DNA from: a virus
DNA: 24,275 nt
Virus record (IMG/VR): IMGVR_UViG_3300030085_001709
Span: 1-24,275 of that record
Direction: 5' to 3' (one strand)
Shown here: positions 3,964 to 24,248 of the stretch, in pieces
How the letters are laid out: each line of letters begins with the position of its first letter
Numbering within the stretch: the first letter of the stretch is position 1
Position numbers and translations under genes: made by a program
The notes under the pieces: model-generated
Database searches by the model: none
Told to the model about the DNA's origin: nothing
Seen by the model: only the letters and a program-made list of their open reading frames with translations

Positions 3964-4838
3964 TTTTTATGACCTCTAATATCACGCTTACATTTTATAC
4001 AAGGCGAACCTTCAACCCAATCAGCACTATTTATTCTTTTCTTAAAACCTTGATATTTTTCACTTGCATAATTTTTAAACAAGTTAGTTTCTTTTTTTAT
4101 ATCACCTATAACCCAATCTTTATGCAATTCAGGTGCAATCATATCACAGCACGCTGTCATACTGCCATCATATTCAATGTAAACACCTTTGTCCATACTT
4201 GTGCAAGGTTCTGTTCTTTTATAATTTAAATCTAAAACTGTACCTGCTCTATTCATACCATTTACCCAATAGTTTCTAGCGTGTATTGTAGATTTAATTT
4301 GAGGTAATTGATATCTAATCCAGTCTTTGTTTTTATGTTCATCTGGATTTATTGGTCTAACATTTATTTTTTTACATATTTTATTAATTCTTTTAAACAC
4401 TTCATTTTCATCATATGCAACGGCACCATTTTTCATATAAGCTTGTATCGCAATATGGTCTACATAACAATTTAATAATTCATCAATGTATTCTCTATTT
4501 AAATAATCTGAATTTGTATTAATACTAATTTTTGCTTTTGGTAAATAATAATTTACTAAACGACATCTTTCTAATATGTCCTCTTTGTGTGATAGTGGTT
4601 CATGGTATCTAGAAAAATCTATACGACCATCAAAATCTATCTCAGCTAACTGCTCTAAGATGTTTTGAAACATCAGTTTATCCATAAATTTTGTTTTCTT
4701 TTTATCTCTACGATTTACATCATCTCTAGACAATGGACAAAAATTACAAGTACGATTACAATAGTTATGAGTACCTATTTCAATAGATGTTATATTATCT
4801 TTAAATAATTTTCTTGCTACTGATTCTTTGTAGGCCAT
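3960..4838 (-). CDS. radical SAM enzyme with SPASM-like C-terminus
   Basis: A 292-aa protein. C27-x3-C31-x2-C34 (YCNRTCNFCP) is the canonical radical SAM 4Fe-4S motif, and the following sequence has a TIM-barrel-like pattern with INTNSDYL near residues 106-113. The C-terminus carries further Cys: C212, C230-C231 (YDGSMTACCD) and C280-x2-C283 (SPCIKCKRD), with GDI between them. This is the layout of SPASM/twitch auxiliary-cluster domains found in peptide- and sugar-modifying radical SAM enzymes. GAGAGGAT precedes the ATG. The ParB-like gene overlaps its start by 22 bases and its stop overlaps the oxygenase start. The substrate is unknown; peptide, protein and sugar substrates are all known for the family. 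Confidence 0.92.
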   Translation of the reverse strand: MAYKESVARKLFKDNITSIEIGTHNYCNRTCNFCPLSRDDVNRRDKKKTKFMDKLMFQNILEQLAEIDFDGRIDFSRYHEPLSHKEDILERCRLVNYYLPKAKISINTNSDYLNREYIDELLNCYVDHIAIQAYMKNGAVAYDENEVFKRINKICKKINVRPINPDEHKNKDWIRYQLPQIKSTIHARNYWVNGMNRAGTVLDLNYKRTEPCTSMDKGVYIEYDGSMTACCDMIAPELHKDWVIGDIKKETNLFKNYASEKYQGFKKRINSADWVEGSPCIKCKRDIRGHKK

Positions 4839-9301: not shown

Positions 9302-9302
9302 T

Positions 9303-10304
9303 TTACACTCTCTTCCAAAAATCTAACTTAGCAATTGCACTAAGACCATGATATGTATTATTATAAATTATTTCTTCTACATCAAGACCAGATATCACCA
9401 TATCATTAATATCTTTCTCTTTTAAATCATCAGGCCAAATAACTATTTTGTGACCATCATCAATCGCCTTATACATTCTTTTGATGATTTCATTATTTCG
9501 TGGTTCGTTATCATATATATAAATCATTTGCTGTGGGTCTTTCAATAAATTATTATTAATTTCTCTTAAATCTGCACCAGCAGCTGCCACACAATTTTCT
9601 ACAAATAAACTATCTAGAGGACCTTCAACAATACGAATATCATCATCATAAACAATTCTATCTAGACCATAAATTTTTAATTGTTCTTCATCTAATTTTA
9701 TAGTTACATACTTTGGTTGTTCTTTACCAAATGCTCTTCCTTGAAATGCAAAAAATTCACCATGTTCATTATAAAAAGGTATAATTAATCTAGGATAATC
9801 TCTAGTTATATCTACATAAGTTTTTGGTTTTGCTTTGTTACAAAATGTCATAAACTTAGGTGCAAAATATAATTTGTTTAGATGTCCTGTAAGTTTTCTA
9901 TTTTCACAATATACCCTAGCAGGGTGTTCTAAATCTAGTTCTGCTATCTTTTTAAGTCCGTTTATGATATCAGTATCTTCATTCTTAAAAGGTTTAAAAT
10001 CAAATTCAACCTTTTCTTTTTTGGTATCAGTCTTTCTATATCTTTCTACTGTATATTCAGAATATAGTTTAGTGTCTAATTTTTTAATTAGACCTGCTAG
10101 ATTTGTACCTACACCACAATTGTGGCACTTGTAAAACATATTTGTTTTTACACGATACAGATACCCTCTAGCCTTTGTTTTGTCTTTTTGAGAATCACCA
10201 CAATAAGGGCACCTAAAGTTAAACAGATAGTCATTCTTTCGTTTGAACATCTGTAACCTAGATGAGAGAATATTAATATATTTTAAATCTACATAATTTG
10301 ACAT
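9303..10304 (-). CDS. T4 gp61-like DNA primase
   Basis: A 333-aa DnaG-type primase similar in size to T4 gp61 (342 aa). The N-terminal zinc-binding module is CPYC (C32, C35) and CHNC (C60, C63), with GDSQKDKTKARGY between. A TOPRIM domain follows: VEGPLDSLF (E227), IYIYDNEP (D265) and DIND (~298-301) give the metal-binding acidic residues. It makes RNA primers for lagging-strand synthesis with the replicative helicase. There is no ribosome binding site; a sigma70-like promoter ends only 12 bases before the ATG, so the message is probably nearly leaderless. An internal Met19 has no better signal and would lose N-terminal sequence that aligns with gp61. It is the first gene of a long unidirectional run. 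Confidence 0.93.
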   Translation of the reverse strand: MSNYVDLKYINILSSRLQMFKRKNDYLFNFRCPYCGDSQKDKTKARGYLYRVKTNMFYKCHNCGVGTNLAGLIKKLDTKLYSEYTVERYRKTDTKKEKVEFDFKPFKNEDTDIINGLKKIAELDLEHPARVYCENRKLTGHLNKLYFAPKFMTFCNKAKPKTYVDITRDYPRLIIPFYNEHGEFFAFQGRAFGKEQPKYVTIKLDEEQLKIYGLDRIVYDDDIRIVEGPLDSLFVENCVAAAGADLREINNNLLKDPQQMIYIYDNEPRNNEIIKRMYKAIDDGHKIVIWPDDLKEKDINDMVISGLDVEEIIYNNTYHGLSAIAKLDFWKRV

Positions 10305-10316
10305 AACACGATAGTT

Positions 10317-10795: not shown

Positions 10796-11053
10796 TTAAT
10801 TTGATAGTGGGTTACCTGATTTAGCTTGTATTTCTCTAATTTGTAATTTCAACAATTCAATTTCTTTGCCATTAATTTTAGAATTTTTATCTACTTCACT
10901 AATTGCTGTTGCATTGACTTTTGCTGATTCTTTGATTTTACTTAGAGCTTCAAGTTTGGTCATAATCTCCCCATACTTAACAAATCCACCACCTATTGTT
11001 AATACTAAACCTAGAGCGGCTGCTACCCATTTTATATCTATATCTTTAAACAT
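10796..11053 (-). CDS. small membrane protein, N-terminal TM plus coiled coil
   Basis: An 85-aa protein with a transmembrane segment near the N-terminus (WVAAALGLVLTIGGGFVKYG, ~9-28) followed by a charged helix with a heptad-like pattern (about 35-78). GAGGAAG lies 5 bases before the ATG. The start overlaps the stop of the 637-aa secreted protein by one base (TAATG). Holins can have this size, but a single TM with a long soluble helix fits an anchor or coiled-coil partner at least as well. It is paired with the adjacent C-terminally anchored coiled-coil protein. Confidence 0.85.
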   Translation of the reverse strand: MFKDIDIKWVAAALGLVLTIGGGFVKYGEIMTKLEALSKIKESAKVNATAISEVDKNSKINGKEIELLKLQIREIQAKSGNPLSN

Positions 11054-12966
11054 TAACTTCCTCTTTTTAGTTCTTTGAGTTCTTGTAATACTCTTAATTT
11101 TTCATTGTGTATATCTGTTAATATACCTTGTTTAACAGCAATTGGGTCATTACCTGTGTACGCTACTAATGAGGCGTCTGCATATATTTGTTGCTGTTCA
11201 AGTATATTTATAGTATCAAAAAAGTTAGGATTAGGAACACCTATCATTTTCTGGTTTTGATAGATAGGTTTGTTATACACCGATAAATTTGGGGCGTCCA
11301 TTTGCATACCCTTTAAAGTAACTACTTGTATAGCCCTAACCCTATCTGATACTTTTTTAAGTTTTGCTTCTACTTTAGCAATAATTTTTTCTATCTTTGC
11401 TCCGATATCTGCAACTTGTGTAGAGGATTCTGAAACTGATGTATCTTCCTCAACGACAACTTCTTCACCGCCTTCCTGTGTCGGTGTTCCTTCTGATGTC
11501 GTAGTTTCATCCATGTTAGATTCATTAGATACTGTTTCTGTTTCTGTTTCGGTATTTCCCTCATTACTAGTTTCCTCAGACTGTGCTGTTGTTTCGGTAG
11601 CATTTGTATTATTTTCCTCCGTTGTTGGTTGTTCATTTTCAGAAGCCACAGTTTCTTCGGTGGCATTTTCTTCTGTTGTTACAGTTTCGTTTTCTGATGT
11701 TGTTACCTCCTCTGGTTGATTATTTTCTTCAATAGAAGATTCTTCCATAGCCGTAGATGTTTCTTCCATAACTGGCTTTTCTTCCAATGCGACAGGCTCT
11801 TCAGTCTGGACCACCTCCTCTTCCATCGCCGTTGGTTCTATTGTTGGTTCCTCGGTTATGGTTGATACATTTTCCGTTGGCATAGGCATAGGTTCTTCTA
11901 AAGTTTCCACTATCATACTAACAGTTTCTTCAAAAAATTGTTCCTCTGTTATCGCTTCTTCCATTAATATTTCTTCAAATTCTTCTACTAAATTTTCTTC
12001 TTCTAATATTGCTTTAAAATTTTCAACAAATAATTCTTTAAACATTTCTAATTCTACTTGTTTAACCTCTACTTCTTGCATTTCAAGTTCAATAGTTTCA
12101 ATCGCAAGTTCTTCTTCTATTTCTATCTCAGTATTAAATGTTGGTTCTTCTAGTAAGGTAAGTGTGCCAAAATTTTCTAATTCTTCCTCTATGTTTAGTG
12201 TTTCAAAATTTTCTTCTATCGCTTCTGCGACTTCTTCTATTTCTTCAACAGCGGTGTTGATGTTTGATAGTTCTTCTGCACTTATTGGTGAATAGTTTAT
12301 ATCTAAAAGTGTTGCTTGTAAACTGGCACCTAAGAGATTAGGACCTATTAGACTGTTGTTATTTGTGCTACTGCCATCTATACCTTCCCATTCCCAATCC
12401 CATTTTCTAGCACCCTCACCTGTATGAGTTACAGAATCTTGATATGTAAAAGTATTACTATAATAACCTGAATCGTTATTTCTAATTTGTGTTACAGTAG
12501 CTAAAACTTCATTGTTTTCATCTAGTATTTTTACTGTTGTTGAAAAAGTATCTCTTGAACCACCACCTCTTGAAGCTTGACCACATTGAAAAGATGAACC
12601 TACCCATTCACAATTTTGTACCTCAGTTATGGCGTCAAGTCTAACACCACCATCTAAACTATCTGCTGTTGTGGTATGTGATTGAGCATTTTCTGTTATG
12701 ATGTCTAGACCTAGTAATGAACCATCAACACTAATTGTACAATTACCACCACACTCAAATTCATTTTGAAAAAATGTATGTACGCCTGTTGTATCTACTT
12801 GACCACTAATGGCTGAACCTACTTTATCAGGAGATAAACCATCTGTTTGATTTTGCCAATTAGCTTGACCATCACCTTGGTTAGGTAATAAATTACCAGA
12901 TGTTGCTGTTTCAGCAATACTTTGATATGGTATCGTTAACAATAATAATAAAAATAATTTTTTCAT
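11053..12966 (-). CDS. secreted protein with long Glu-rich central region
   Basis: A 637-aa protein not recognised by function. Residues 1-18 are a Sec signal peptide (KK, poly-Leu core, then SIA before ET). Residues 19-~225 look like a beta-rich domain with four Cys (C72, C76, C119, C128) that could form disulfides in the periplasm. Residues ~230-510 are a Glu/Thr/Val-rich low-complexity region, helical in the first half and Ser/Thr/Asn-rich in the second. Residues ~520-637 are a basic helical segment and a folded-looking tail with NPNFFDTINILEQQQIYADASL. AAGGAT lies 8 bases before the ATG. It lies between another signal-peptide protein and two small membrane proteins. It may work in the host periplasm or as a processed virion component; neither is shown. 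Confidence 0.9.
   Translation of the reverse strand: MKKLFLLLLLTIPYQSIAETATSGNLLPNQGDGQANWQNQTDGLSPDKVGSAISGQVDTTGVHTFFQNEFECGGNCTISVDGSLLGLDIITENAQSHTTTADSLDGGVRLDAITEVQNCEWVGSSFQCGQASRGGGSRDTFSTTVKILDENNEVLATVTQIRNNDSGYYSNTFTYQDSVTHTGEGARKWDWEWEGIDGSSTNNNSLIGPNLLGASLQATLLDINYSPISAEELSNINTAVEEIEEVAEAIEENFETLNIEEELENFGTLTLLEEPTFNTEIEIEEELAIETIELEMQEVEVKQVELEMFKELFVENFKAILEEENLVEEFEEILMEEAITEEQFFEETVSMIVETLEEPMPMPTENVSTITEEPTIEPTAMEEEVVQTEEPVALEEKPVMEETSTAMEESSIEENNQPEEVTTSENETVTTEENATEETVASENEQPTTEENNTNATETTAQSEETSNEGNTETETETVSNESNMDETTTSEGTPTQEGGEEVVVEEDTSVSESSTQVADIGAKIEKIIAKVEAKLKKVSDRVRAIQVVTLKGMQMDAPNLSVYNKPIYQNQKMIGVPNPNFFDTINILEQQQIYADASLVAYTGNDPIAVKQGILTDIHNEKLRVLQELKELKRGS
11437..12279 (-). 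repeat. Glu-rich low-complexity coding segment
   Basis: The central ~280 codons of the 637-aa secreted protein form a degenerate run of EE[VTS]-type units. The first part is hydrophobic/Glu alternating (EEIEEVAEAIEENFETL and similar), the later part is TTEEN/TEETV/SENE-like. The bias also leaves long Ser-rich readings open on the other strand, which are composition artefacts. Confidence 0.75.
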
Positions 12967-13020: not shown

Positions 13021-13776
13021 CTATTTTTGATTTAATGTCTGTTTCTGGACTTTTTTTTTATCAAACTCTATTTCAGTTTCTAGAGCTTTAATTTCTTCTG
13101 CTATTTTATCTAATTCTTTTTTATCTTCTTTAGATACATTTTCTTTTGATTCAAGTTTAGACTTCCAGATTGCCAGCTCTTTTTCTTTCTTTTCCGTTTC
13201 TTTCATTGTTTTTATAATGTTCAGTCGGTCTGTATACTGTACAAAGTCTGGTCTTAACTTGTCATATTTTTTCCATTGGTCTGAAGCTGCTTTACCAATC
13301 TTACCTTCAAATGGACATGGTGTGCCTGATTGTTCCATAGCATAGAACACTCTTTCATCTTGGCAGAGGATTGACACGGCCGCCACCTTCATACCTAGGT
13401 CTGATAAAGTTTTTGAAAGTTTGATACGCTCACAATTCTCATCAGTTACATATGTACCTCCAGATATTCCTAAACCGATAGTAGATATACCACCTGAAAT
13501 ACCAACGATACATAAATCTTGTGAGTAAGCGGACATACTTGGTGCTGACGCCATACCTGCTACTCTAGTATCTACACCAGAATTTGTAGTTGTAGATGTG
13601 GTTGTAGTAGTATTTGTTTGACCACCAGAATATGTATTATTATTAGTTGTAGTGTAGCCACCAGTAATATTTGTATTACTGCCGGAAGTGTTAGATTGTG
13701 TATTCGTATCAGCCGCCACAGCAACAGGTGTTGCTATCATAACTAAACATAACAAAGAAAGTCTAAATTTCTTCAT
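13021..13776 (-). CDS. secreted marine-phage-type protein, Cys-containing, function unknown
   Basis: A 251-aa protein with a clear Sec signal peptide (MKKFRLSLLCLVMIATPVAVA, cleavage near residue 21-22; no lipobox). A Ser/Thr/Asn/Gly-rich linker (~23-70) leads to a compact domain (~75-165) with SQDLCIVGISGGISTIGLGISGG, ENCERIKLSKTL, AAVSILCQDERVF and GTPCPFEGKIG. Four conserved-looking Cys suggest disulfides, and I recall this domain from other marine phage genomes without an assigned function. The C-terminus (~190-245) is a Lys/Glu-rich coiled coil. AAGGAC precedes the ATG. A run of nine A at codons 240-242 could give a -1 shifted product with a hydrophobic tail. It heads the envelope block. 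Confidence 0.9.
   Translation of the reverse strand: MKKFRLSLLCLVMIATPVAVAADTNTQSNTSGSNTNITGGYTTTNNNTYSGGQTNTTTTTSTTTNSGVDTRVAGMASAPSMSAYSQDLCIVGISGGISTIGLGISGGTYVTDENCERIKLSKTLSDLGMKVAAVSILCQDERVFYAMEQSGTPCPFEGKIGKAASDQWKKYDKLRPDFVQYTDRLNIIKTMKETEKKEKELAIWKSKLESKENVSKEDKKELDKIAEEIKALETEIEFDKKKVQKQTLNQK
13051..13059 (-). other. A9 slippery run, possible -1 frameshift site
   Basis: Codons 240-242 of the 251-aa gene read AAA AAA AAA, then GTC. In frame, translation adds nine residues and stops. A -1 shift on the A run adds 24 different residues up to a TAA at 12977-12979, including a hydrophobic tail KIVYTVLGLIFFGMII, for a 266-aa product. A possible AAACAG/CTGTTT stem lies about six bases downstream. 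The shift could also arise by polymerase slippage; the tail may be chance in AT-rich sequence. Confidence 0.35.
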
Positions 13777-13805: not shown

Positions 13806-13928
13806 AGATTTTTTCTTGGCTACTGCTTTCTTTTTTGCTACTTTTTTCTTTTGAACAGGGTTCAAAACCTCTACAATTTTTAAAAGTTTTTCTTTTACCC
13901 ATTCTATAATGCATTTAATATGTTCCAT
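13797..13928 (-). CDS. 43-aa peptide with Lys/Ala-rich histone-like tail
   Basis: A short gene of 43 residues: an amphipathic N-terminal helix (MEHIKCIIEWVKEKLLKIVEVL) and a C-terminal tail KKKVAKKKAVAKKKSTK that resembles histone H1 or HU-tail K/A repeats. The start overlaps the stop of the 313-aa gene by one base (TAATG), and the stop is followed after 20 bases by the next start. No ribosome binding site is evident, so coupling is likely. It may bind DNA, RNA or acidic surfaces; it sits at the end of the packaged-protein block, where basic internal head proteins would be expected. Function not established. Confidence 0.7.
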   Translation of the reverse strand: MEHIKCIIEWVKEKLLKIVEVLNPVQKKKVAKKKAVAKKKSTK

Positions 13929-14869
13929 TATTTGCCCTCTCTACGCTTAATGGTTATCTTCTTCATTTTTTCTATGTACGCTTTATAGACCTTTTCAGCG
14001 GCGTGTAAGTTTTTCTTACTCTCTGGATTTTTTGCTCTATCGGCAGCTACTCTTGCTCTTTGGTGCATGGCCATAGCAGCTTGCATTTTGTGGGCGTGTG
14101 GTCTTCCAGACTTACTAATTATATTTATGCTTTCTTTAGCTTTGGCACCATCAACAAATCCAAGACCTTTGATAGTATCTTTAGGGTCCTCATCTGTATA
14201 TAAATCAGAATGTTTGTCTGGGTCTTGACTTTTGTATTTTCTAGGTACTCTTTTCTCTGCTTCTTCTAAACTTTCATTTTTCAACATTTTAGATAACTGT
14301 CTAGGTTCAACACCTGTAAAAGACCTTGCTACTTGATATGCATAATAATTATCATCATGCCTTCTTTTGTTTTTGTGTTTTCTGTCTAACACTTGTTTTA
14401 GAGCAGTTAAAGCTAATTTATAATTACCTCTACGAATAGTTTTACTTCTAATATTTTGTATTATGTCATTAAACCAGGTTTCATCTATTTGTGTTTCTTC
14501 ACCCATTGGTAAATATTGTGCTAATTGACCGGCAGAGTTTAATATGTTTGTTAATACAGGCATAGGTAGTTTTGTTAAAGCAGCTAACTGGTCTTTTGTT
14601 AATTCATATTTGTCTTTTATTTTTTTTAGTAAAGGATTTGTTTCTGCATTTAAACTTGCCTGAGGTTTTAAATTCATATGACCACGACCATGTGTATTTG
14701 TTCCTGCATTGCCACCATAACCAGCGTGTAGACCTACACCTCTGCTTTGGTAGTTTCTATCAAAATTTTTAGGTGGTGAATCACCAAGACTTGCCATAGG
14801 ATGATATCTAGAATAATTACCTAGTCTAACACCACCCATGTATTCTGTATATTCTTTAAATGTTTTCAT
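13928..14869 (-). CDS. probable virion or core protein, MKTFKEY N-terminus
   Basis: A 313-aa basic protein, function not recognised. The N-terminus MKTFKEYTEYM resembles the T4 internal-protein targeting sequence (MKTYQEFIAE), although the I/L-x-E cleavage triplet is degenerate. A Gly/His/Arg-rich stretch (~30-70) is followed by a helical region with LTKDQLAALTKLPMPVLTNIL (~91-111), and the C-terminus is strongly basic with many Ala/Lys/Arg (~260-313). There is no good ribosome binding site; it overlaps the preceding gene by 14 bases. It is likely a late gene of the capsid-core type, inferred from its N-terminus and neighbours. Confidence 0.85.
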   Translation of the reverse strand: MKTFKEYTEYMGGVRLGNYSRYHPMASLGDSPPKNFDRNYQSRGVGLHAGYGGNAGTNTHGRGHMNLKPQASLNAETNPLLKKIKDKYELTKDQLAALTKLPMPVLTNILNSAGQLAQYLPMGEETQIDETWFNDIIQNIRSKTIRRGNYKLALTALKQVLDRKHKNKRRHDDNYYAYQVARSFTGVEPRQLSKMLKNESLEEAEKRVPRKYKSQDPDKHSDLYTDEDPKDTIKGLGFVDGAKAKESINIISKSGRPHAHKMQAAMAMHQRARVAADRAKNPESKKNLHAAEKVYKAYIEKMKKITIKRREGK

Positions 14870-15089
14870 CAGATTTTATCGCAGCTATGTAATCTGCCAT
14901 GCCATCTAGTTTACTAACTGCAACGGCAACCTTATTTGTCCACCATGTTGGTAATGAATCGCTATCATTTAGTTTACTCATTTCACCATCCATTTTTTCT
15001 AAGGCTGACTTAGCAATTTTTATTTGTTTTTTAACTGAAGCAACATCTTCGTGTCCGTCTTCTTTTATGTAAGATTTAAATCTTCTCAT
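14856..15089 (-). CDS. 77-aa small protein with capsid-targeting-like N-terminus
   Basis: A 77-aa protein starting MRRFKSYIKED, matching the pattern basic-x-F-x-x-aromatic-I-x-E with I8-x-E10 in the same place as I8-A9-E10 of T4 internal proteins. The C-terminal half has LPTWWTNKVAVAVSKLDGM, a helical Trp-containing segment I have seen in other marine phage small proteins without function. GGAGTAGG precedes the ATG, which overlaps the preceding stop as ATGA. It is likely head-packaged cargo if the targeting resemblance is real. Confidence 0.85.
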   Translation of the reverse strand: MRRFKSYIKEDGHEDVASVKKQIKIAKSALEKMDGEMSKLNDSDSLPTWWTNKVAVAVSKLDGMADYIAAIKSDENI

Positions 15090-15457
15090 TTTCCTACTCC
15101 AAATTTATCGCTAAAAGTTTTATACTCTTTTTCTTCCTCAAATTTTATAGTATCATCTGTGCCTGATACTTCATCTACTTTAGATTCTAGTTTTTCTACA
15201 ACAGCATTTACACTATCTAATACTGCATTATTCATATGCTCATTTTTCATCATCATTGTACTAATTTTTCTAGATATCTTTTCTTGGTCTTTTTCATTTT
15301 TCTTTTTATGTTTCATTGCCTTTTTAGGGTGAACACCTGGCTCGCCATCAGGACCTACACCGATACCTGCAATTGCACCACCACCAGCCGCATTTGCTGG
15401 AGTTTCATCCATTTTGTTTATGATTTCATCAATCATTTCTTTATAATGTTTTGGCAT
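15086..15457 (-). CDS. 123-aa virion-associated-type protein with Gly-rich segment
   Basis: The ATG at 15457 is chosen because GGAG lies 8 bases upstream; an ATG at 15484 would add nine residues without a ribosome binding site and deepen the overlap with the preceding gene. The N-terminus (MPKHYKEMIDEIINKMDE) leads to PANAAGGGAIAGIGVGPDGE (~20-39), a Gly-rich motif shared by several T4-like marine phage proteins near head genes, then a Lys-rich helix and an acidic C-terminus. It may be a core or internal protein; function unassigned. Confidence 0.82.
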   Translation of the reverse strand: MPKHYKEMIDEIINKMDETPANAAGGGAIAGIGVGPDGEPGVHPKKAMKHKKKNEKDQEKISRKISTMMMKNEHMNNAVLDSVNAVVEKLESKVDEVSGTDDTIKFEEEKEYKTFSDKFGVGK

Positions 15458-15926
15458 ATTCTTGCTCCGATAAAAGTTCACCATCTACCTCATAAACATC
15501 AATACCAAAACAAGTATTAATAGGTTTATCAGATATATTAGCCTCAAAGATATCACCTTCGTTATTTAATATTTCATCATATTGATTAGTTTCTTTTAAA
15601 TATTTAATAACAGCACTTTCAATTAATTTTTGTTTATCAGATAACTCTTTATCTTCTTTAATTAATAATGCAAGAGAAACGGCAAAAGAACCTAAAGCTC
15701 CTCTAATACCTACTTTAGCAAGTATTCTTTTAAGATTAAAAATAAATCTGTGAAGCATTGTATAACTTTTTTTTTCTTTTGCTGTTTTTAAAGTTCTATA
15801 CTTTTTTAATACTTTACCGTTTTTATCTATTATACCTGTTTTAAAAGCCTCTTGCTTTTCAAAAGGCGTAACAAGTAATTTTATTACTCTATAAGTTATT
15901 AATAAATCAATTGCTCTATTTGCCAC
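15441..15926 (-). CDS. 161-aa conserved phage protein, unknown function (GTG start)
   Basis: A 161-aa protein starting at GTG 15926, which overlaps the preceding stop by one base (TAGTG), with GAGGAAATT upstream. The first half is RAIDLLITYRVIKLLVTPFEKQEAFKTGIID followed by a Lys-rich stretch and LHRFIFNLKRILAKVGIRGALGSFAVSLALLIKE, a hydrophobic-basic pattern that could be membrane-associated. I recognise this sequence style from many tailed phages, where it occurs beside a homologue of the upstream 121-aa gene, but no function is known to me. The C-terminus is acidic. Confidence 0.85.
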   Translation of the reverse strand: MANRAIDLLITYRVIKLLVTPFEKQEAFKTGIIDKNGKVLKKYRTLKTAKEKKSYTMLHRFIFNLKRILAKVGIRGALGSFAVSLALLIKEDKELSDKQKLIESAVIKYLKETNQYDEILNNEGDIFEANISDKPINTCFGIDVYEVDGELLSEQEYAKTL

Positions 15927-16291
15927 TATCTAATTTCCTCTAATAGTTTTAAAATTTTCTCATCATCTTTGATATCAGGTAGTTCTGTTGGGTGCAAATA
16001 CTCTAGAAAATGTAATACTGGTTTTAATATTTTCCAATGTTCTTCTTCTATATGGTATAACAATAATGTTACACAAGCTTCTGCACCAAAAACATTTTGT
16101 AAAACTACTATATGATTTACTACAAGTCTAACCTTTATTTCGCCTGATAAATCATATTTACGAAATAATCTTTTAAGATATTTAAATCTTTTCAAATCAT
16201 CATGAAACTCCTCCTCTTTTTCAACAGTAGGGTTATCATAATTTTTCATTGCATACAACATCCAGTTGTCTTTCGTAATTGTATCAAACAT
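15926..16291 (-). CDS. 121-aa conserved phage protein, unknown function
   Basis: A 121-aa, probably all-helical protein. Typical segments are NWMLYAMKNYDNP (~9-21), EEFHDDLKRFKYLKRLFRKY (~27-46) and VRLVVNHIVVLQNVFGAEAC (~54-73), with a C-terminal acidic helix. It resembles a widespread tailed-phage family usually next to the 161-aa protein encoded immediately downstream, suggesting a functional pair. The ribosome binding site is weak (AGAAG). The gene overlaps the next by one base. Confidence 0.85.
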   Translation of the reverse strand: MFDTITKDNWMLYAMKNYDNPTVEKEEEFHDDLKRFKYLKRLFRKYDLSGEIKVRLVVNHIVVLQNVFGAEACVTLLLYHIEEEHWKILKPVLHFLEYLHPTELPDIKDDEKILKLLEEIR

Positions 16292-16308
16292 AATATACTT
16301 CTATTTTT

Positions 16309-16788
16309 TTAAATTAATTTAGCGTAAACTTTATATGTGTTGTTATGATTTCTATGATGTTCAATTTCCATTTTTAATCCACCATCTTTTAGATGAGAGA
16401 TACCATCATCATTGATTACATCTTCTGGTTTAGTATCAGTATCTTTACCGAATCTACCACCATGTTTCTTAACTTCACAAGTTAATTTACCTTCATCGCC
16501 TTTTAATGGCGGGCACTCAAAATGTAGTCCTACTCTTGCTAATTTTTCTGCTAACTTATCTACGGCGTGTTGTGGGTTTATGTACTCACCATCTGCAATA
16601 GAACCAACAAATCCATTAACAACATCTAAAACTTTTTCATCATGAATGTTATGAGCACCTATCACGCTATCCTCAGCACCTTGTTCACCTGATGAACCAA
16701 CAGCAGCCGCTGTTTTATCACTACCTTGTTGGCGGATTTGAGTTCTATGTGAAGATACTTCTGTAATGTGTTGTTTAAAAGTTTTCAT
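16309..16788 (-). CDS. 159-aa protein with capsid-targeting-like N-terminus
   Basis: A 159-aa protein starting MKTFKQHITEV, which matches T4 MKTYQEFIAEA closely (K2, T3, aromatic 4, I8-x-E10). Cleavage after E10 by a gp21-like prohead protease would release the rest. The body has a Gly/Ser-rich early segment, a helical part and a C-terminal domain with KLTCEVKKHGGRFG and GGLKMEIEHHRNHNNTYKVYA, possibly metal- or nucleic-acid-binding from its His content. AGAGGAC lies upstream, overlapping the preceding stop. Probably late and head-packaged; the biochemical role is unknown. Confidence 0.85.
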   Translation of the reverse strand: MKTFKQHITEVSSHRTQIRQQGSDKTAAAVGSSGEQGAEDSVIGAHNIHDEKVLDVVNGFVGSIADGEYINPQHAVDKLAEKLARVGLHFECPPLKGDEGKLTCEVKKHGGRFGKDTDTKPEDVINDDGISHLKDGGLKMEIEHHRNHNNTYKVYAKLI

Positions 16789-16797
16789 TTTTGTCCT

Positions 16798-17004
16798 CTA
16801 TTTGTACTTATCTGATTTTCTCTTTGTGCCATCAGCACGAGCAATCAGACCCTTTGCTTTCAAATGTGCTTTATCGGTGAAGCCTGCCTTACCTGCTTTA
16901 TATCGCTTCATAGCGTCAGCAGTATCGGGTGCTTTTTCACCGATAACATCACTCTCATAATCTTTTAAGTTTTTCTCATCAAGAAAATTCTTAAAATTTT
17001 TCAT
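16798..17004 (-). CDS. 68-aa basic protein with capsid-targeting-like N-terminus
   Basis: Started at the ATG at 17004, which has AGAGGT upstream and leaves a 4-base gap to the preceding stop; an upstream ATG at 17067 would overlap the preceding gene by 59 bases. This start gives MKNFKNFLDEK, with L8-x-E10 exactly where T4 internal proteins have IAE. The rest is basic: RYKAGKAGFTDKAHLKAKG and a tail of Lys/Arg, resembling short proteins of other marine T4-like phages. If targeted to the prohead it would be a basic internal protein compatible with DNA. Confidence 0.82.
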   Translation of the reverse strand: MKNFKNFLDEKNLKDYESDVIGEKAPDTADAMKRYKAGKAGFTDKAHLKAKGLIARADGTKRKSDKYK

Positions 17005-18171: not shown

Positions 18172-18660
18172 TTATAAACCTAGTTTTTTAAGTTGGGAAA
18201 TGGTTGAAGCGGCGCTGGTGTGTCTAATAGCTATACCGCCGTTTTGATTAAACTCTCTAGTATTACTAGTAAAATCATCAATAAGTAGGTTTTGTTGAGA
18301 GGTACCTCGTTTTATTGCAAAAGTTTTTTTCATTCTTCTTTGCACTAGATTTATTCTAGAACCAGATATACCTAGATTTTTTCTAATCCAATCTCTTTTA
18401 CCTGGTATGCAATAAGGGTCTGTTACTTGTGATACATATGCTGATAATATATGTGGGTTGTGTTTACGAATATATGACCATAATGCTCTACCATCTGGTC
18501 TCCAAGGCATTTTAGACCAAAAGTTTTTATCAACCTCTAATATAGCCCACCTTTCTTTTACAGGTAGTTTAGACCATTGATTTATTCTCATGCCAGATTT
18601 TTGTTCAACATGGCGCTCAAAGTCAGTTAAGACCCCGTCCATATCACAGTAGATTATCAT
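18172..18660 (-). CDS. HAD-superfamily phosphatase (nucleotidase-like)
   Basis: A 162-aa HAD fold protein: motif I DMDGVLTDF with D6 (nucleophile) and D8; motif II Ser73 in HILSAYV; Lys88 in PGKRDW; motif IV LIDDFTSN with D128/D129. The layout resembles phage 5'(3')-deoxyribonucleotidases and related small HAD phosphatases that hydrolyse phosphate monoesters. The substrate could be a nucleotide, a DNA end or a sugar phosphate. No ribosome binding site is visible; the preceding stop is four bases upstream, so translation is probably coupled. It is unusual as the only clear enzyme in the virion-associated block. Confidence 0.88.
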   Translation of the reverse strand: MIIYCDMDGVLTDFERHVEQKSGMRINQWSKLPVKERWAILEVDKNFWSKMPWRPDGRALWSYIRKHNPHILSAYVSQVTDPYCIPGKRDWIRKNLGISGSRINLVQRRMKKTFAIKRGTSQQNLLIDDFTSNTREFNQNGGIAIRHTSAASTISQLKKLGL

Positions 18661-18664
18661 AGGA

Positions 18665-20005
18665 TTATTTTATGTCAATTTCTGCTTCAGGTTCAGTATC
18701 AACCTTTGTAGCAGGTGTACCAGTCATGGCTTTTTTCTTTGTGTCTTTTTGTTCACCTTTTGTTTTAAAAGGTTGTGGGTGTTTCCTTAAATCGTAGCCA
18801 CAATTAGAACATTTTTTAGCGTCAGCGTCATTCATATGTCCACAGTTAGGACATTTTACTTTATCTTCAACTAAATTTTTTTTTTCTTCGGTCTTTAACC
18901 ACTTAGCGTCATCTTCTCTTTTGACTTGTTCGCCGGCGGCTGAGTTCCAAACATCTATAATAGATTGTTCAATTGATTTAGTTTCAGTTTCTTCGTTTAC
19001 TGTACCACTTTTAGGTTCGTATTCGCCTCTGATACCTCTTAATTTTGTTCTTCTTTCTTTATCACTTAAAGAAAATCCCATACCATCAAGAGCAAGTGCT
19101 AATTTATTAACACTAAACCCACCTGCTTTAGCGATAGATGATGTATCCATGTGGTCAAACTTAATCTTATATTTTCCTGTTTTCTTTCCTTTAATGCCAG
19201 GAAATTTTTTATTTAGTAAGCTTACTAAATCTGCGACATCTCTATTAGATATCGGACCTCTGCTTTGTTTAAAGTCTTGTGGGTCAAACTCTATTTCTGT
19301 TGCTTCGTTTACTTGATTACCTTGAGGTTCAAATTCACTACAATGAGCAGACTTTAGACTTTTCTTTTTACCTTTCATTTTGTAGTGTGAATTATGAGAT
19401 GATTGAGTTAAGACTTTAAGTTCTGTTATAGGGACTTGTTTTTCAATACCATGTTCAAACATTACATCATACCATTCAATATTACCTTCTTCATCAGGTT
19501 CAGCGTGCATTGAGTAAACTGTTTCTCCTTCTCCCCAAGATTCGTGAGTTACTTGTTTAGCACATAGGTGCTGAAAGTTAGCAGGGTTTTTCTCTTGGTC
19601 TTCGTTTACTGATTCGTTTACATGACGCCAAATATCTTTTAGTGTTTGGTCACTATGCATTCCACCTTTGTGTTTTTTTAAAAAAGCTTGTAATGACATT
19701 TCAGCCGCTTCATCTTCTAGGTCCATAAGTAAACCTTTCATAGCGCCTTCTTTCATTTCACCTTTTGCTAATTTTCTTTGTGCGTTTTTCTTGTCTGCCA
19801 TATGGTCTTCACTTTTTGCCTTATGCATAGAATCCATTTTATTAAAAAATGCTTTCTTTTCTTTAGGCGACATAGTGCCAATACCTTTATGGCCAGTCTT
19901 ATCTAATTCTTTTTTAAATTTATCCTGGTAGTCTGCTTCTAACTTAGGCGACATACTTCTCGCAAGTTCTTCTATACTACCTGGTTTTGATTTTAAGTAA
20001 CTCAT
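18665..20005 (-). CDS. 446-aa modular virion-type protein with C-terminal zinc ribbon
   Basis: A modular protein with separate segments: a Lys-rich helical N-terminus (1-130), an SH3/KOW-like beta module (~155-200; SWGEGETVYSMHAEPDEEG then WYDVMFEHGIEKQVPITEL), an alpha/beta module (~236-325), then an acidic linker and a double-CxxC zinc ribbon (CPNCGH C385/C388 and CSNCGY C399/C402), ending in a Lys/acidic tail. Segments are joined by VNE motifs (HVNESVNE, QVNEATE, TVNEETE). Similar mixtures occur in large T4-like marine phage virion or core proteins. AGGGAGAAT ribosome binding site, TATAAATA box upstream. The zinc ribbon suggests nucleic-acid or protein binding; the exact role is unknown. 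Confidence 0.85.
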   Translation of the reverse strand: MSYLKSKPGSIEELARSMSPKLEADYQDKFKKELDKTGHKGIGTMSPKEKKAFFNKMDSMHKAKSEDHMADKKNAQRKLAKGEMKEGAMKGLLMDLEDEAAEMSLQAFLKKHKGGMHSDQTLKDIWRHVNESVNEDQEKNPANFQHLCAKQVTHESWGEGETVYSMHAEPDEEGNIEWYDVMFEHGIEKQVPITELKVLTQSSHNSHYKMKGKKKSLKSAHCSEFEPQGNQVNEATEIEFDPQDFKQSRGPISNRDVADLVSLLNKKFPGIKGKKTGKYKIKFDHMDTSSIAKAGGFSVNKLALALDGMGFSLSDKERRTKLRGIRGEYEPKSGTVNEETETKSIEQSIIDVWNSAAGEQVKREDDAKWLKTEEKKNLVEDKVKCPNCGHMNDADAKKCSNCGYDLRKHPQPFKTKGEQKDTKKKAMTGTPATKVDTEPEAEIDIK

Positions 20006-20035: not shown

Positions 20036-23000
20036 TTAATCTTTCTTTTGTGCTCTCACTTTTGCAGCTAAATCTTTATCTGCTTTGCCCCAAGTTCCAG
20101 ATGATTTAGTTACAAATGAATTAACTCTTGCTAGCGCCCATTGTACTTGTGTAGCACCAGGTCTATGACCACCTTTCCAAGCCGCCATACCTCTATCATA
20201 TACTTTTTTAAGTATTGAATATGGCATACCTGTTTTTTCTGCCTTATTTTTTACTGCTTTGATAGATTCTACTACTTGTCTAGCACCTGCGTGTTTGTCA
20301 TTATGGTCTATGTTTAGTTTCTTTTTGACTATATTTGTTGCTGTGCCAAACTTAACATTCATAGCGTCTTTACCATATCTCTTTTTAAAGTCTTTCATAG
20401 GTAATTTTTCTGCAACTTTTTTGACCATCTTGACTTGTTTATCTGTTAGGTCTGCCTCTGAAATATATGCTTCATCATATGTACCTAACATATAATTAGC
20501 CGCTTTTTCTCCAACATCTTTTTCAAGAGCTCTAACAAAATCACTAGCAGCCGGTTCATCTATTGTTTTAAATTTTTTAATAAACTCTTTTTTACCTTTA
20601 TCTTTTTTACCATCTAATTTAACATTTTGACCTAATTTTATTAATTCTTCAAAGTCTTTAGCGTCTTGTTTATCTATTTCATCGCTACCTCTTTTGAATT
20701 TAGCAATCATGTTATTTAAATTATTAAAGTTAGAATTGTTTATTTTTTTAGTCATTTTTCTAACTGGTTCTGGAATACTTGTATCTACTGGTTCATCTTT
20801 ATCGCCTAATTCATCTTTAGATTTAACTCTAGCAGTTACAAAATTGTAGTCCTGTTCAATCTCTAAAGCGTCACCAAAGTTTTTCTCTAATTCTTTTATC
20901 AATTCATCAGAATCATCTGCGTCCATTTCTAAAGTATCTTTACCTTTATATTCATATTCTATGTACCCAAGGCTATCACCAGAACCACCATAACCTCTAA
21001 TTTTATCTATTATTAGACCTTTTAATTTGGCTGCTGAAGGTGAACCATCTTTTTTAAATAATCCTTTTTGCATTTCACTTTTGGTCATGCCCATTTTATT
21101 TACTACTTTTTCATCACCACTATCACTTTTAGCGTCATCATCTTTTCCTTTTGTTTCAACATCGCCTACTTTACCAGTCTTAGCGTCAAATTTTCTTAAT
21201 TTACCACCAGTGCTTTTGTGTGTTACTTTACCACCTTTACCATATCGGCCAAATTTGTAGTAAGTTAAACCTAATGCTTTTGCTTGGTCTGAAGCGGTTG
21301 ATTCTTCTAGTTCTTCTGTAAACTTAACAGGCACCATTTCTGTTTTTTGTGTTTTAGGATTAAGTGCCATCATGTATGGTTTACCTGTTATCATACCTTT
21401 AACATCTAATGGTACTTTAGCATAATTTTTCATAGATATTTTTACTGGACCTTTACCATCATATTTGTAATCTCTACCAGCAATAACTGCCTCAGCTAAA
21501 TCATAACCTAGCTTTGATAATAATCGTTTCATTTGGTTTTTTTCTACGCCAGTATTAAAGTATAATGATTCTTTATCACGACCTGTTAAATCAACTCTAG
21601 CACTAAAGCCCATTTTTTTTAATTCAGCTTGAACGGTGTCAGCTTCTCTATGACCTATTGCACCATCAACATTATCAAACTTGATAGTATAAGCTCTTTC
21701 ACCTAAGTATTGTTCTTTAAGTTTAAATTTATTTGGTATATTTTTTACCTTTTCTATTTTTTTCTTTTCTTGGTCTTTAAATACTTTATATGCAACACCA
21801 ACTGTTAAAGGTACCTCACCTGTTTCTGGATTAGGTTCAGGTTTTACTGCCTTGTTTTTTTCATTTTCTAGTTTTGTTTTAAGTATTGCAATGTCATTTT
21901 TTAATGACTGTATTTCTGCTTCTTTATCTTTTTGGTCTTTAACTATTTTATCTCTTTCACCTGTTTGAGTAGAACCTCTACCTGCTTGAGCATCCCTACC
22001 AAAGTTAGGATTAAATTCTTTTAGTTCTTCTTCTTCGTGAACACTTGACATTTGAGCATTATGAATATCCCATATATTAGATAATGATTTTCTGTCTAGT
22101 ATTTTAGAACCAGGCAATATACTTGTATCTATGTATTTTTTAATAAAAGGCTCTTTTTTTAATGACTTAGCCTGTTTAATCATTTTATCAAGTGCTATTG
22201 TTAATAAACTTTCATCTAAATCTACTTCTTCATCAAGTTTATTGATTTCTCCAGCACTCATATTATGTTTTGAAATAAGTCTTGCTACTGCCATTTGACT
22301 AACAAAAGGTATGTGTGCTTTAAATAATTGAATTAAAGCATTTTTATCCTTATCAATCTTATCAAATATTTTCATTAAAGGACCAGGTGGAATTCTTTTA
22401 CCTTTTAAAGGTCCGTATGCCTTTTTAAGTTGAGCAATCATAGCAGGACTAAAGTTTTCATCTATATCGTTTAGTTCTACTTTTTCTGTTTCTTCTTTTG
22501 TAACTCTTACACCAAACTTAGATTTAATTTTATCTGCAAGTTCATGAGCACCTTTACCTTCAAACTCTATATTATTACCAGCGTCAACATCAACATAGTC
22601 TATATTCTTTTTATTTGCATTTATAAATTTTACTATTGCTGGTTTTTTTGAATGTATTGTTGCAAAGTATTCTGTAAGTTCTGTTTCTTCTTTGAGTGGA
22701 TATCCTACCATTATGTCCTTAGTAGTAGGTTTTTTTAATTTAACAATTTTTAAAAAACCTCTATTTCTATGATGTACACTCATTTTTAAATCTTTTTCAT
22801 TAGAAGACATAGCAACAACTTCGTTATCTTTAGAGGTATCTACAAGAGCATACTTAAATTTAACTGATTCTTGTACTTCTTCTTTAATTGCTTTGTCTAA
22901 TGCTTTAGATTGGTCTGCATGAGCTTTACTTGCCTTTTTTAATTTAGCAACCACTTGTTTAACAATAGATGTATCATCTTTGTCTAATTCTTCATTAGCT

Positions 23001-23902
23001 CTTTTTAATGCATTAGCAACATCTGGATGTCTTGATAAACCTTTTGCAAGTTTTTCAATTGCTTTTACAGCACCTGTATAATCACCACCTTTATATCGTG
23101 GGTCATTTAGTATACCATATGCTTGTTTAATTTGTTGAGATGAATACTCATTTAGTTCTACTTCTTCTGTTGTTACTTTTTCTTCCTCTTCTTTTTTAAG
23201 TTTTAAGTATGCAGCCTTCGTAGCTTGTCTATCTTTATCTACCTTTTTTAAAAGAGCTTGAAATCTCTTTTGAGCAGGAGTTAATTTGCCAGTTCCTATA
23301 ACAGTATATTTTTCACCTCCTATAGTTACAGTATTTTTTTCATTTACTTCTTCAGCGGCAGTATAACCTTGTCTTTTATATTTTTCAAATTCAGACTTAT
23401 CTATGACTGATACTCTGCCCTCTTTATCAACAACCATCATTTCTTTACTTGGGTCTTTTAATTGTCTAGAATAGTTTTGTAGTTCATCTAGTTCTAATTC
23501 TTCTCTTAATCTTCTGTAATATTTTGATTGTATCATTGTTACAAAATCATTTTCAGCTTTTGTTAGGTATGAACCTACTTTTCTAGTTTTATTATACAGT
23601 CTGGTCATTCTACTTTTTTCGCTAGTATCACCAAACATTTTAGCTAGTTCATAAGAGTTTTTTGTGTGTTCGTTTTCATCTTCGTTTCTATCAAAATCTT
23701 TTTTAGTAAATTTTTCATTAATACTATCTTCACCTAGTATATCTTTTACCACTTTAAGAGGTAATTTCATTTTATCAGCTATTTCTCTAGTTGTAGCTCC
23801 GCTTTGTTGCATGGTGTAAACATCTTTCATTTTACCCTCATTGAAGTCTGAAGCGTAAACCTCTTCTAAAGCTTCTCTCATAGTTTTTCTATATCTACTC
23901 AT
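20036..23902 (-). CDS. 1288-aa modular virion/core protein with HTH-like and GHRPG modules
   Basis: The largest gene in the window. The N-terminus (MSRYRKTMREALEEVY) is followed by a helix-turn-helix-like segment (about 24-58; GATTREIADKMKLPLKVVKD). Several alpha/beta or helical modules follow, separated by acidic linkers ending in (V/L)-x-L-x-E-type triplets: near residues 140, 252, 411, 564, 629, 804, 867 and 1149. A Lys/Glu coiled coil lies at ~650-690. The C-terminus has GHRPGATQVQWALARVNSF (~1245-1263), a module found at the end of several marine phage proteins (DUF5824-like, from memory). AGAGGG ribosome binding site. It is probably a structural or core protein cleaved by a prohead protease; a polyprotein-like layout is inferred, not shown. 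Confidence 0.85.
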   Translation of the reverse strand: MSRYRKTMREALEEVYASDFNEGKMKDVYTMQQSGATTREIADKMKLPLKVVKDILGEDSINEKFTKKDFDRNEDENEHTKNSYELAKMFGDTSEKSRMTRLYNKTRKVGSYLTKAENDFVTMIQSKYYRRLREELELDELQNYSRQLKDPSKEMMVVDKEGRVSVIDKSEFEKYKRQGYTAAEEVNEKNTVTIGGEKYTVIGTGKLTPAQKRFQALLKKVDKDRQATKAAYLKLKKEEEEKVTTEEVELNEYSSQQIKQAYGILNDPRYKGGDYTGAVKAIEKLAKGLSRHPDVANALKRANEELDKDDTSIVKQVVAKLKKASKAHADQSKALDKAIKEEVQESVKFKYALVDTSKDNEVVAMSSNEKDLKMSVHHRNRGFLKIVKLKKPTTKDIMVGYPLKEETELTEYFATIHSKKPAIVKFINANKKNIDYVDVDAGNNIEFEGKGAHELADKIKSKFGVRVTKEETEKVELNDIDENFSPAMIAQLKKAYGPLKGKRIPPGPLMKIFDKIDKDKNALIQLFKAHIPFVSQMAVARLISKHNMSAGEINKLDEEVDLDESLLTIALDKMIKQAKSLKKEPFIKKYIDTSILPGSKILDRKSLSNIWDIHNAQMSSVHEEEELKEFNPNFGRDAQAGRGSTQTGERDKIVKDQKDKEAEIQSLKNDIAILKTKLENEKNKAVKPEPNPETGEVPLTVGVAYKVFKDQEKKKIEKVKNIPNKFKLKEQYLGERAYTIKFDNVDGAIGHREADTVQAELKKMGFSARVDLTGRDKESLYFNTGVEKNQMKRLLSKLGYDLAEAVIAGRDYKYDGKGPVKISMKNYAKVPLDVKGMITGKPYMMALNPKTQKTEMVPVKFTEELEESTASDQAKALGLTYYKFGRYGKGGKVTHKSTGGKLRKFDAKTGKVGDVETKGKDDDAKSDSGDEKVVNKMGMTKSEMQKGLFKKDGSPSAAKLKGLIIDKIRGYGGSGDSLGYIEYEYKGKDTLEMDADDSDELIKELEKNFGDALEIEQDYNFVTARVKSKDELGDKDEPVDTSIPEPVRKMTKKINNSNFNNLNNMIAKFKRGSDEIDKQDAKDFEELIKLGQNVKLDGKKDKGKKEFIKKFKTIDEPAASDFVRALEKDVGEKAANYMLGTYDEAYISEADLTDKQVKMVKKVAEKLPMKDFKKRYGKDAMNVKFGTATNIVKKKLNIDHNDKHAGARQVVESIKAVKNKAEKTGMPYSILKKVYDRGMAAWKGGHRPGATQVQWALARVNSFVTKSSGTWGKADKDLAAKVRAQKKD

Positions 23903-23918: not shown

Positions 23919-24248
23919 CTATTTTATCTTTCTTGTTTTGACATTAACATTTTTTAAAGCATTGAAACTCTTATCACTTAACATATCAGCAACAAATTTT
24001 TCATCTGGTCCTTTTAATATAAATTTCCTAATGTTACCACCTTTTGTTATTATTTTTGGTACAGGTCTGTAAGAGCCTTTGTATGTGTCAATGTATTGCT
24101 TTGCAAAATTATAAGCCTTACCTGTACTATCAGTAACTTCTATATCTTCTTTAACATCTTCATAAACATCTTCAAATGTTTTAGGTCTAGGTGGTATCTC
24201 TTTTGCCTCTAAACCATATGAATTATTTGTAAACTCTTTATATTTCAT
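23919..24248 (-). CDS. 109-aa basic protein with partial targeting-like N-terminus
   Basis: A 109-aa protein, MKYKEFTNNSYG at the start, an acidic segment (FEDVYEDVKEDIEVTD) and a basic C-terminus. The first six residues resemble the MKTYQEF/MKTFKQH targeting pattern, but no I/L-x-E triplet follows at position 8-10. The ATG overlaps the preceding stop as ATGA. No known motif; likely a late virion-associated gene by position. Confidence 0.8.
   Translation of the reverse strand: MKYKEFTNNSYGLEAKEIPPRPKTFEDVYEDVKEDIEVTDSTGKAYNFAKQYIDTYKGSYRPVPKIITKGGNIRKFILKGPDEKFVADMLSDKSFNALKNVNVKTRKIK

Follow-up and report, generated by a model that had tools for sequence, protein, structure and literature searches.

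The question raised by this locus is what a set of viral genes may encode when their products share the first ten residues in front of otherwise unrelated bodies. The window, i.e. the whole stretch of 24,275 nucleotides analysed here, belongs to a 34-kb virus record (IMG/VR IMGVR_UViG_3300030085_001709), and an earlier note had claimed that five N-termini in it resemble the tag of the T4 internal proteins. In T4, the internal proteins IPI, IPII and IPIII carry a capsid-targeting sequence (Mullaney and Black 1996, reviewed in PMC9026906), in which genetics assigned residues 4 and 7 (Y4 and F7) to targeting and residues 8 and 10 to processing (PMC9026906). Our answer is that in this marine T4-like myovirus the block very probably specifies cargo for the head, targeted by the tag, trimmed by a gp21-type protease, retained with the DNA and probably entering the host. 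Co-packing with DNA is probable because the tag is T4-like and because the same tag is found on virion-detected enzymes of relatives.

All five N-termini are present where the earlier note had placed them, each on the minus strand (Table 1). The register of T4 MKTYQEFIAE is exact in the proteins at 14856, 16309 and 16798, where F4 and H, F or Y7 occupy the targeting positions and I/L8 and E10 the processing positions, and the consensus of these three tags is MKxFKx[FYH][IL]xE. Back-translated to DNA, the motif has 2 matches in the window vs 0.00 in shuffles. For the 16798-17004 gene the open reading frame list permits a longer TTG start; homologues share the ATG at 17004. The two N-termini that had been called degenerate relatives, at 13928 and 23919, are indeed degenerate, both lacking the processing residues 8 and 10, E10 included; kinship is convincing for the former through its homologues, which begin with MKTFKEYMN, MKSFKEFIG and MKKFKEFLNKES, and is still doubtful for the latter because only three sequences are in hand, starting with MNYKEFTKKSYG and MKYKEFTNNSYG.

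Table 1. Tagged proteins and landmark genes of the window (slashes follow the Glu of hydrophobic-x-Glu sites).
Feature	Position	Strand	Remarks
DNA primase (gp61-like)	9303..10304	-	boundary marker of the block
313-aa protein, degenerate tag	13928..14869	-	MKTFKEYTEY; F4 and Y7 present, E10 lacking
77-aa tagged protein	14856..15089	-	MRRFKSYIKE/DGHEDVASVKKQ
159-aa tagged protein	16309..16788	-	start MKTFKQHITE/VSSH...; tag = residues 1-10 (16759-16788)
68-aa basic tagged protein	16798..17004	-	MKNFKNFLDE/KNLKDY...VIGE/KAPDTADAMKR
5'-nucleotidase-like protein	18172..18660	-	untagged here
1288-aa mosaic protein, probable cargo	20036..23902	-	N-terminus MSRYRKTMREALEEV, another shared type
109-aa protein, doubtful tag	23919..24248	-	start MKYKEFTNNSYG; three homologues only

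Starts rich in Lys and Phe could look alike by chance in an AT-rich genome, and the window indeed has about 32% GC and proteins rich in Lys, Phe and Glu. The search of related phages that the earlier note had proposed covered the N-termini of 2,070 proteins (451 families) from 80 related loci and two isolate genomes, and it found the motif in 122 proteins against a mean of 2.8 and a maximum of 11 in composition-preserving shuffles. The cyanophage S-CREM2, with 47.9% GC (PMC10665884), has seven tagged proteins vs 0.4 in shuffles. With shuffles so far below the observed counts in both data sets, chance resemblance was rejected and keeps a practically negligible probability. The matches fall in only 11 of the 451 families, across which F dominates at position 4 and F, Y or H at position 7, partly imposed by the motif, and K2 and K5 are conserved too, although the motif does not impose them. 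As a control, the same motif applied to the first 100 kb of T4 picks out IPII, IPIII and gp61.1, the last starting with MKTFKEFIKE and encoded in the gp41-gp61 interval; IPI starts with MKTFKEFTSTTTPVSTITE, which lacks E10 and the processing residues of positions 8 and 10. In HTVC008M, the closest isolate, neither the exact core motif nor the strict pattern M[KR]x[FY]xx[FYH][IL]xE has a match, and the homologues bear looser forms (MKSFKDFQNVNE, MKTFTDF), so the strict motif undercounts. With loose motifs alone, enrichment of the block in HTVC008M and Melnitz is weak (p=0.03-0.09).

The bodies behind the tag were claimed to be otherwise unrelated, which is borne out by the 11 families and, in addition, by adenylate kinase. 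In the family of the 159-aa protein (82 members, 76 with a core-motif match), conservation drops from 94% at residues 1-10 to 9% at residues 11-20, and F4 and H7 are invariant. The layout is a conserved tag, a hypervariable disordered linker and a conserved body. The AlphaFold2 model of the 159-aa protein has a mean pLDDT of 62, with residues 9-47 disordered and the body mostly ordered, and no fold in the PDB matches it at E<=0.001, for which reasons this protein is left without a function. Nor did Pfam or PHROGs point to a function for any of the three tagged proteins of the window.

The processing site can be followed into other contexts. The 77-aa domain occurs elsewhere within unrelated proteins, nearly always embedded, and [ILVMF]xE stands directly before it in all 22 distinct contexts, compared with 0-2 of 22 at eleven neighbouring offsets; this hydrophobic-x-Glu site would match the specificity of gp21. 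The body of the 68-aa protein is fused inside gp128 of HTVC008M after an internal VEGFKEFIMKYLE. For other domains the outcome is mixed. A similar junction lies eight residues ahead of the conserved segment of DUF5824 in 12 of 17 cases, and accompanies the AExxGKKV domain in 5/7 and the PxTADAMKR domain in 8/11; none was found before the LYTDEDP domain. Among adenylate kinases of the same virus group, 43 of 80 have a nucleotide-binding strand that follows immediately on a core tag, as in MKSFKNFITEAEQKRIIMIGGPGSGKST. As to the earlier description of a set of small undescribed proteins, the small tagged proteins do stand, and the set proves wider, with recognisable enzymes (adenylate kinase, P-loop kinase) outside the window.

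The block adjoins the gp61-like primase and ribonucleotide reductase, in synteny with HTVC008M and Melnitz, and in relatives it lies between gp41-like and gp61-like genes; the gp41 side falls outside the 34-kb record. By block position and synteny the window virus is of the Kyanoviridae-type T4-like kind. A cytidylyltransferase-like protein is encoded beside the window (G000:24273-27362), and homologues of the 5'-nucleotidase-like protein in HTVC008M and Melnitz have N-terminal extensions (MKYSAFKAETLNLHLVQE..., MKSIVEVTSINEE...). An S77 prohead protease (PF03420, gp21-type) is present in HTVC008M, Melnitz and S-CREM2. In a gp21 search of the 34-kb record, itself a fragment, neither gp21 nor the control gave a match anywhere; the record shows no gp21 gene, and so neither the protease nor the scaffold of this virus is in view.

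Virion data from relatives bear directly on packaging. In the S-CREM2 virion mass spectrometry (PMC10665884), 28 of 195 proteins overall were detected in virions, against five of the seven tagged non-structural proteins (p=0.0007, the formal motif count having been made after the S-CREM2 N-termini had already been inspected). No protein listed there as structural bears the tag, and gp30 and gp175 are tagged, yet not detected in virions; the authors caution that enzymes may co-purify with virions. Published work also reports virion detection of two cytidylyltransferases, namely T4-GC190 of S-SM1, starting with MKKFSAFLNEA, and S-SZBM1_140, starting with MRFRQFIIEA. Virion-associated enzymes of cyanophages described in these sources include cytidylyltransferase/NMNAT, an APH-like kinase, SAM hydrolase and a Cas9-like protein (PMC10665884, PMC9602691, PMC9146016, PMC3037559). 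Given non-homologous bodies, conservation at the positions assigned in T4, and tagged homologues or analogues in the virions of S-CREM2, S-SM1 and S-SZBM1, the idea of a packaging tag is strongly supported; packaging in the head draws good support from sequence statistics and from the tagged relatives that published mass spectrometry identified in virions.

The same enrichment largely refutes descent or translational preference, by which paralogues or a recombined N-terminal codon/RBS cassette would share a start with no packaging role. The genes are adjacent on one strand and such a cassette could travel with upstream DNA; however, in front of unrelated bodies the tag retains the very amino acids that T4 genetics requires, and the untagged DsrA, DsrC, desaturase and DUF7207 genes of the same record have the same expression context, which leaves this reading very improbable. 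Alternatively, the tagged proteins might, like T4 gp67 and gp68, be accessories of the prohead core or the scaffold; they would use the tag for core entry, serve head assembly and then be digested or expelled, not injected. T4 core proteins share the tag logic and [IL]xE sites, two hydrophobic-x-Glu sites are conserved in the 68-aa protein, and several bodies are small and conserved in many viruses (the 159-aa family among them), an uncommon trait in anti-defence cargo. A scaffold role makes no sense, however, for adenylate kinase, P-loop kinase, cytidylyltransferase, SAM hydrolase and Cas9-like bodies, and the mature virions above contain tagged enzymes, so we consider this role rather unlikely.

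As head cargo, the proteins would be built into the prohead core, with aromatic residues 4 and 7 of the tag directing them there and I/L8-x-E10 serving as the processing site. A gp21-type S77 protease would then take the tag off after Glu10; we infer this cleavage from site conservation, and it fits the S77 gp21 of relatives and the junctions ahead of the 77-aa domain. The mature protein would remain beside the DNA inside the head and probably enter the host along with it, injection and function of the cargo being suggested by analogy to T4. The tag would act as a swappable module ahead of bodies that are not related to one another, some of them enzymes in which the fold begins right after it.

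The 1288-aa mosaic protein is probably head cargo as well, judging from its sequence: its residues 867-903 form a small domain common to virion-detected cyanophage proteins, and its C-terminal DUF5824 is found in phage C48C1 as a tagged protein of its own. It is conceivable, if somewhat doubtful, that the 1288- and 1029-aa mosaics are polyproteins from which cleavage at many hydrophobic-x-Glu sites would release separate cargo domains. Relatives have their segments in permuted order (22/96 subjects), an internal LKNFTEYLAE is followed by a domain that stands alone, tagged, in C48C1, and the sites before the mostly embedded 77-aa domain point the same way; against this, similarity breakpoints of the 1288-aa protein are no nearer such sites than chance (35% vs 30%, p=0.22). 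The same test was not significant for the 1029-aa and 446-aa proteins (p=0.25 and p=0.15), and therefore we treat the polyprotein idea as a side hypothesis. It would add to the head-cargo reading, not compete with it.

In cyanophage proteomics, metabolic and regulatory enzymes are repeatedly found in virions, and the authors could not separate packaged cargo from contamination. Presence of the N-terminal tag predicts detection in virions, and therefore this question becomes a sequence rule, by which the cargo of ocean T4-like viruses, uncultured ones too, could be read from genomes. Since tagged proteins should act at the outset of infection, functions also become testable for a large portion of marine viral genomes that is still dark. 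A broader view, for which we see about even chances, takes the one tag as a general delivery system, in which a gp41-gp61 cargo locus traceable to T4 would load exchangeable enzymes and mosaics, trimmed by gp21 and delivered ready-made at the onset of infection. The cargo named in it comprises adenylate kinase, P-loop kinase, NMNAT-like transferases and mosaic proteins.

In the open-access literature, which is what our search covered, we found no paper that brings capsid-targeting sequences to bear on T4-like viruses from the sea. In the giant phages SPN3US and phiKZ, ejection proteins are processed after Glu by the prohead protease (PMC5694885). The window set would resemble them in losing propeptides to a gp21-related protease that cuts after Glu and in mixed head cargo, whereas their motif differs (AxE in SPN3US). 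We know of no common ten-residue tag of the window form among giant-phage ejection proteins. The cyanophages with virion enzymes are of the same family, Kyanoviridae, and their members in S-CREM2, S-SM1 and S-SZBM1 start with the same tag, and the window virus has different bodies; in the passages covered, those papers discuss possible contamination and do not bring in a targeting tag. The likeness with the T4 internal proteins lies in several features: an N-terminal ten-residue tag in the same register, common to unrelated bodies, with a hydrophobic-x-Glu processing site, and even a degenerate form, in T4 IPI as in the 313-aa protein. Unlike the T4 set, the marine one contains enzymes and, probably, large mosaics; several of its bodies are conserved across many viruses and are not strain-specific, and profile searches against Pfam and PHROGs linked none of the window bodies to a known internal-protein family. 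T4-type capsid targeting is already known, and the window case is a variant of it with other bodies, enzymes included.

Three proteins of the window begin in the exact register of the T4 capsid-targeting sequence (MRRFKSYIKE, MKTFKQHITE and MKNFKNFLDE) and two others have degenerate starts, which upholds the shared T4-like tag proposed in the earlier note. For T4 IPIII the ten N-terminal residues are enough for packaging: positions 4 and 7 act in targeting and positions 8 and 10 in processing, and a tag with Asp at position 10 is targeted and not processed (PMC9026906). Relatives were searched, as the same note had suggested, with a motif built from the T4 rules (M, 1-4 residues, [FYL]xx[FYHW][ILMVF]xE) in two isolate genomes and in 80 loci that carry a relative of the 159-aa protein, where genes were called by a simple caller reproducing 169 of 198 HTVC008M starts, proteins were clustered on their bodies with the first 17 residues removed, and residues 2-36 were shuffled as the null model. 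Of the 2,070 proteins examined, 122 begin with the motif, far beyond chance (shuffles: mean 2.8, maximum 11), and they are restricted to 11 of 451 families, including those of the 159-aa (76/82), 68-aa (14/29) and 77-aa (3/3) proteins and kinases (10/52). K2 and K5 are kept in the family-averaged matches, though the motif does not require them. No tag was found on DsrA, DsrC, the desaturase, DUF7207 or other neighbours in this virus. Some 68-aa homologues (L317-L396, comparison loci) have Asp at position 10, as in MKTFKTYSKD and MKRFKEFSKD.

Coordinates of the features discussed (window positions unless a record or locus is named)
Position	Strand	Length (aa)	Feature
16309-16788	minus	159	tag MKTFKQHITE
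16798-17004	minus	68	tag MKNFKNFLDE
14856-15089	minus	77	tag MRRFKSYIKE
13928-14869		313	degenerate tag MKTFKEYTEY
23919-24248		109	doubtful tag
20036-23902		1288	mosaic protein
18665-20005			mosaic protein with third start; zinc ribbon
11053-12966			apparent signal peptide; next to cargo block
13021-13776			apparent signal peptide; next to cargo block
496-2370			asparagine-synthase-like (by eye only)
3292-3963			hydroxylase-like (by eye only)
3960-4838			radical-SAM-like (by eye only)
28643-33178 of G000 (record holding the window)			outside window: DsrA, two DsrC (both ending KPTGCV), fatty-acid-desaturase/AlkB-like protein
L093 (comparison locus): 7704-10313			S-CREM2 Cas9-like gp12
L098 (comparison locus): 18966-19130			T4 gp61.1

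In the 159-aa family conservation is 94% at residues 1-10, 9% at 11-20 and 65-83% from residue 51 on, and residues 9-47 are disordered in a structure model. This succession of conserved tag, free linker and conserved body is the pattern expected of a targeting sequence that can be detached. The same kind of start is placed on unrelated bodies, as the earlier note had held. In the window's record an adenylate kinase starts MKTFEELKVNLQEQDEPMMRVIMLGGPGSGKST and a P-loop kinase (AAA_33/zeta-toxin-like) MKTFNYKQFLIKEGVYDPGIF; the core tag lies immediately ahead of the nucleotide-binding strand in 43 of 80 related adenylate kinases (e.g. MKSFKNFITEAEQKRIIMIGGPGSGKST), and most of the remainder have a near version. 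In phage C48C1, with a register at times off by a residue or two, tags are found on a DUF6267-like protein (MMLDFKNFITEQ; the HTVC008M version begins MYNDLLVE), a free-standing DUF5824 (MITFKKYLEEK) and a KKFYVYVK-domain protein (MKKFKQYIDEG), the latter two domains being parts of the window virus's 1288- and 1029-aa proteins. Judged by these sequences, the tag is an add-on, modular in use.

As a control, the motif was run on the initial 100 kb of the T4 genome and matched 3 of 178 ORFs, namely IPII, IPIII and the uncharacterised gp61.1, which starts with the marine consensus tag (MKTFKEFIKED), lies between genes 61 and 41 like the marine block, and has relatives in 1,344 phage records by a query of approximate sequence. 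This gp61.1 may be an unrecognised T4 internal protein. T4 IPI starts MKTFKEFTSTTTPVSTITE, without E10, and therefore the degenerate tag of the 313-aa protein has a precedent.

Packaging of tagged proteins, also claimed earlier, is supported in relatives by published mass spectrometry, and for the window proteins it is a prediction. The S-CREM2 virion proteome (52 proteins; PMC10665884 Table 3) provided the decisive test beyond the window's own relatives, and among its non-structural proteins are a SAM hydrolase (MKDFDSFLEE), gp13 (MKDLHSFLTE), an APH-like kinase (MKRFDAFLTE, GTG start), a cytidylyltransferase (MKNFSSFLTEA), gp136 (MQTFSMFFSE) and the Cas9-like gp12, with a tag-like RFASFMAEA at residues 18-26. 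All 219 S-CREM2 coding sequences give 7 matches against 0.4 in shuffles; 5 of these 7 were found in virions, compared with 28 of the 195 non-structural proteins as a whole (Fisher p=0.0007), with the motif itself taken from T4 and several N-termini inspected ahead of the formal count. The tag is absent from all 24 proteins that the list classes as structural. Virion detection also covers T4-GC190, the S-SM1 cytidylyltransferase (MKKFSAFLNEA; PMC3037559), and S-SZBM1_140 (MRFRQFIIEA; PMC9146016). The authors on S-CREM2 and S-SCSM1 left open that such enzymes are co-purified contaminants; where an enzyme has the tag, this speaks for its having been packaged.

Regarding processing, motifs like ITE-6 and LTE-619 precede the cuts that T4 gp21 makes in Alt (PMC5694885), and HTVC008M, Melnitz and S-CREM2 all have S77 proteases of the gp21 kind. 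Indirect evidence for cleavage is best from the 77-aa protein. Its domain (DGHxDVAS...) occurs in other viruses inside larger unrelated proteins, and all 22 distinct upstream contexts have [ILVMF]xE immediately ahead of it, while the eleven neighbouring offsets have such a site in 0-2 of 22; in the window protein this place is taken by I8-K9-E10 of the tag. Such a conserved site after unrelated sequence looks like a protease junction, though a cap in the structure of the domain could give the same picture. In a general test, breakpoints of the 1288-aa protein were no nearer hydrophobic-x-Glu sites than chance.

The segment order of this 1288-aa mosaic is permuted in relatives (22/96). Three cyanophage proteins detected in virions (S-CREM2 gp14 and gp12, S-SM1_190), in which a small domain follows the tag, were the sole source of a profile that finds residues 867-903 of the mosaic (E=3.9e-7 among 2,290 proteins) and otherwise only its relatives; because of this match the mosaic is probably cargo too. 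The small domain common to gp12, the kinase gp14 and the mosaic is of GYGRY type. The mosaic itself begins differently (MSRYRKTMREALEEV; HTVC008M MTRYTKTMAEAYREV), with a second shared N-terminus, M[ST]RYxKTMxEAxxEV, which is found on large mosaic or related proteins of the window virus, HTVC008M and Melnitz and is possibly another targeting signal. Mosaic proteins of this block also show a third recurrent start, MSYLKSKPGSIEEL / MSKYLETKKGSIE.

The window covers bases 1-24275 of a 34,273-base IMG/VR record; the isolate closest to it is Pelagibacter phage HTVC008M (T4-like myovirus, Kyanoviridae), and it is also syntenic with Methylophilales phage Melnitz. Since DsrA, two DsrC and a desaturase-family protein lie in the same record, a sulphur-oxidising host such as SUP05, not Pelagibacter, is suggested. 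The tagged block, on the minus strand, adjoins primase and ribonucleotide reductase; the equivalent genes in HTVC008M, Melnitz and S-SM1 are flanked by gp41-like helicase and gp61-like primase. One of the two proteins with apparent signal peptides is very Glu/Thr-rich (637 aa), and the three genes listed between 496 and 4838 are apparent phage metabolic or modification genes.

So far as it can be tested by sequence, the tag on the three window proteins is a T4-type capsid-targeting sequence. Residues 4 and 7 would direct the tagged protein to the prohead core, the tag would be removed after Glu10, and the trimmed protein would be retained with the DNA and injected. The set of enzymes suggests action on nucleotide and NAD metabolism as infection starts; T4 internal proteins are anti-restriction factors (PMC12373910), and by analogy such a role is possible for the 159-, 77- and 68-aa proteins. 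The tag rule may make the virion enzymes of cyanophages and marine relatives predictable. Family searches gave no homology of the cargo bodies to T4 internal proteins: the type of tag is the same, whereas the marine cargo is more numerous than, and different from, that described in T4.
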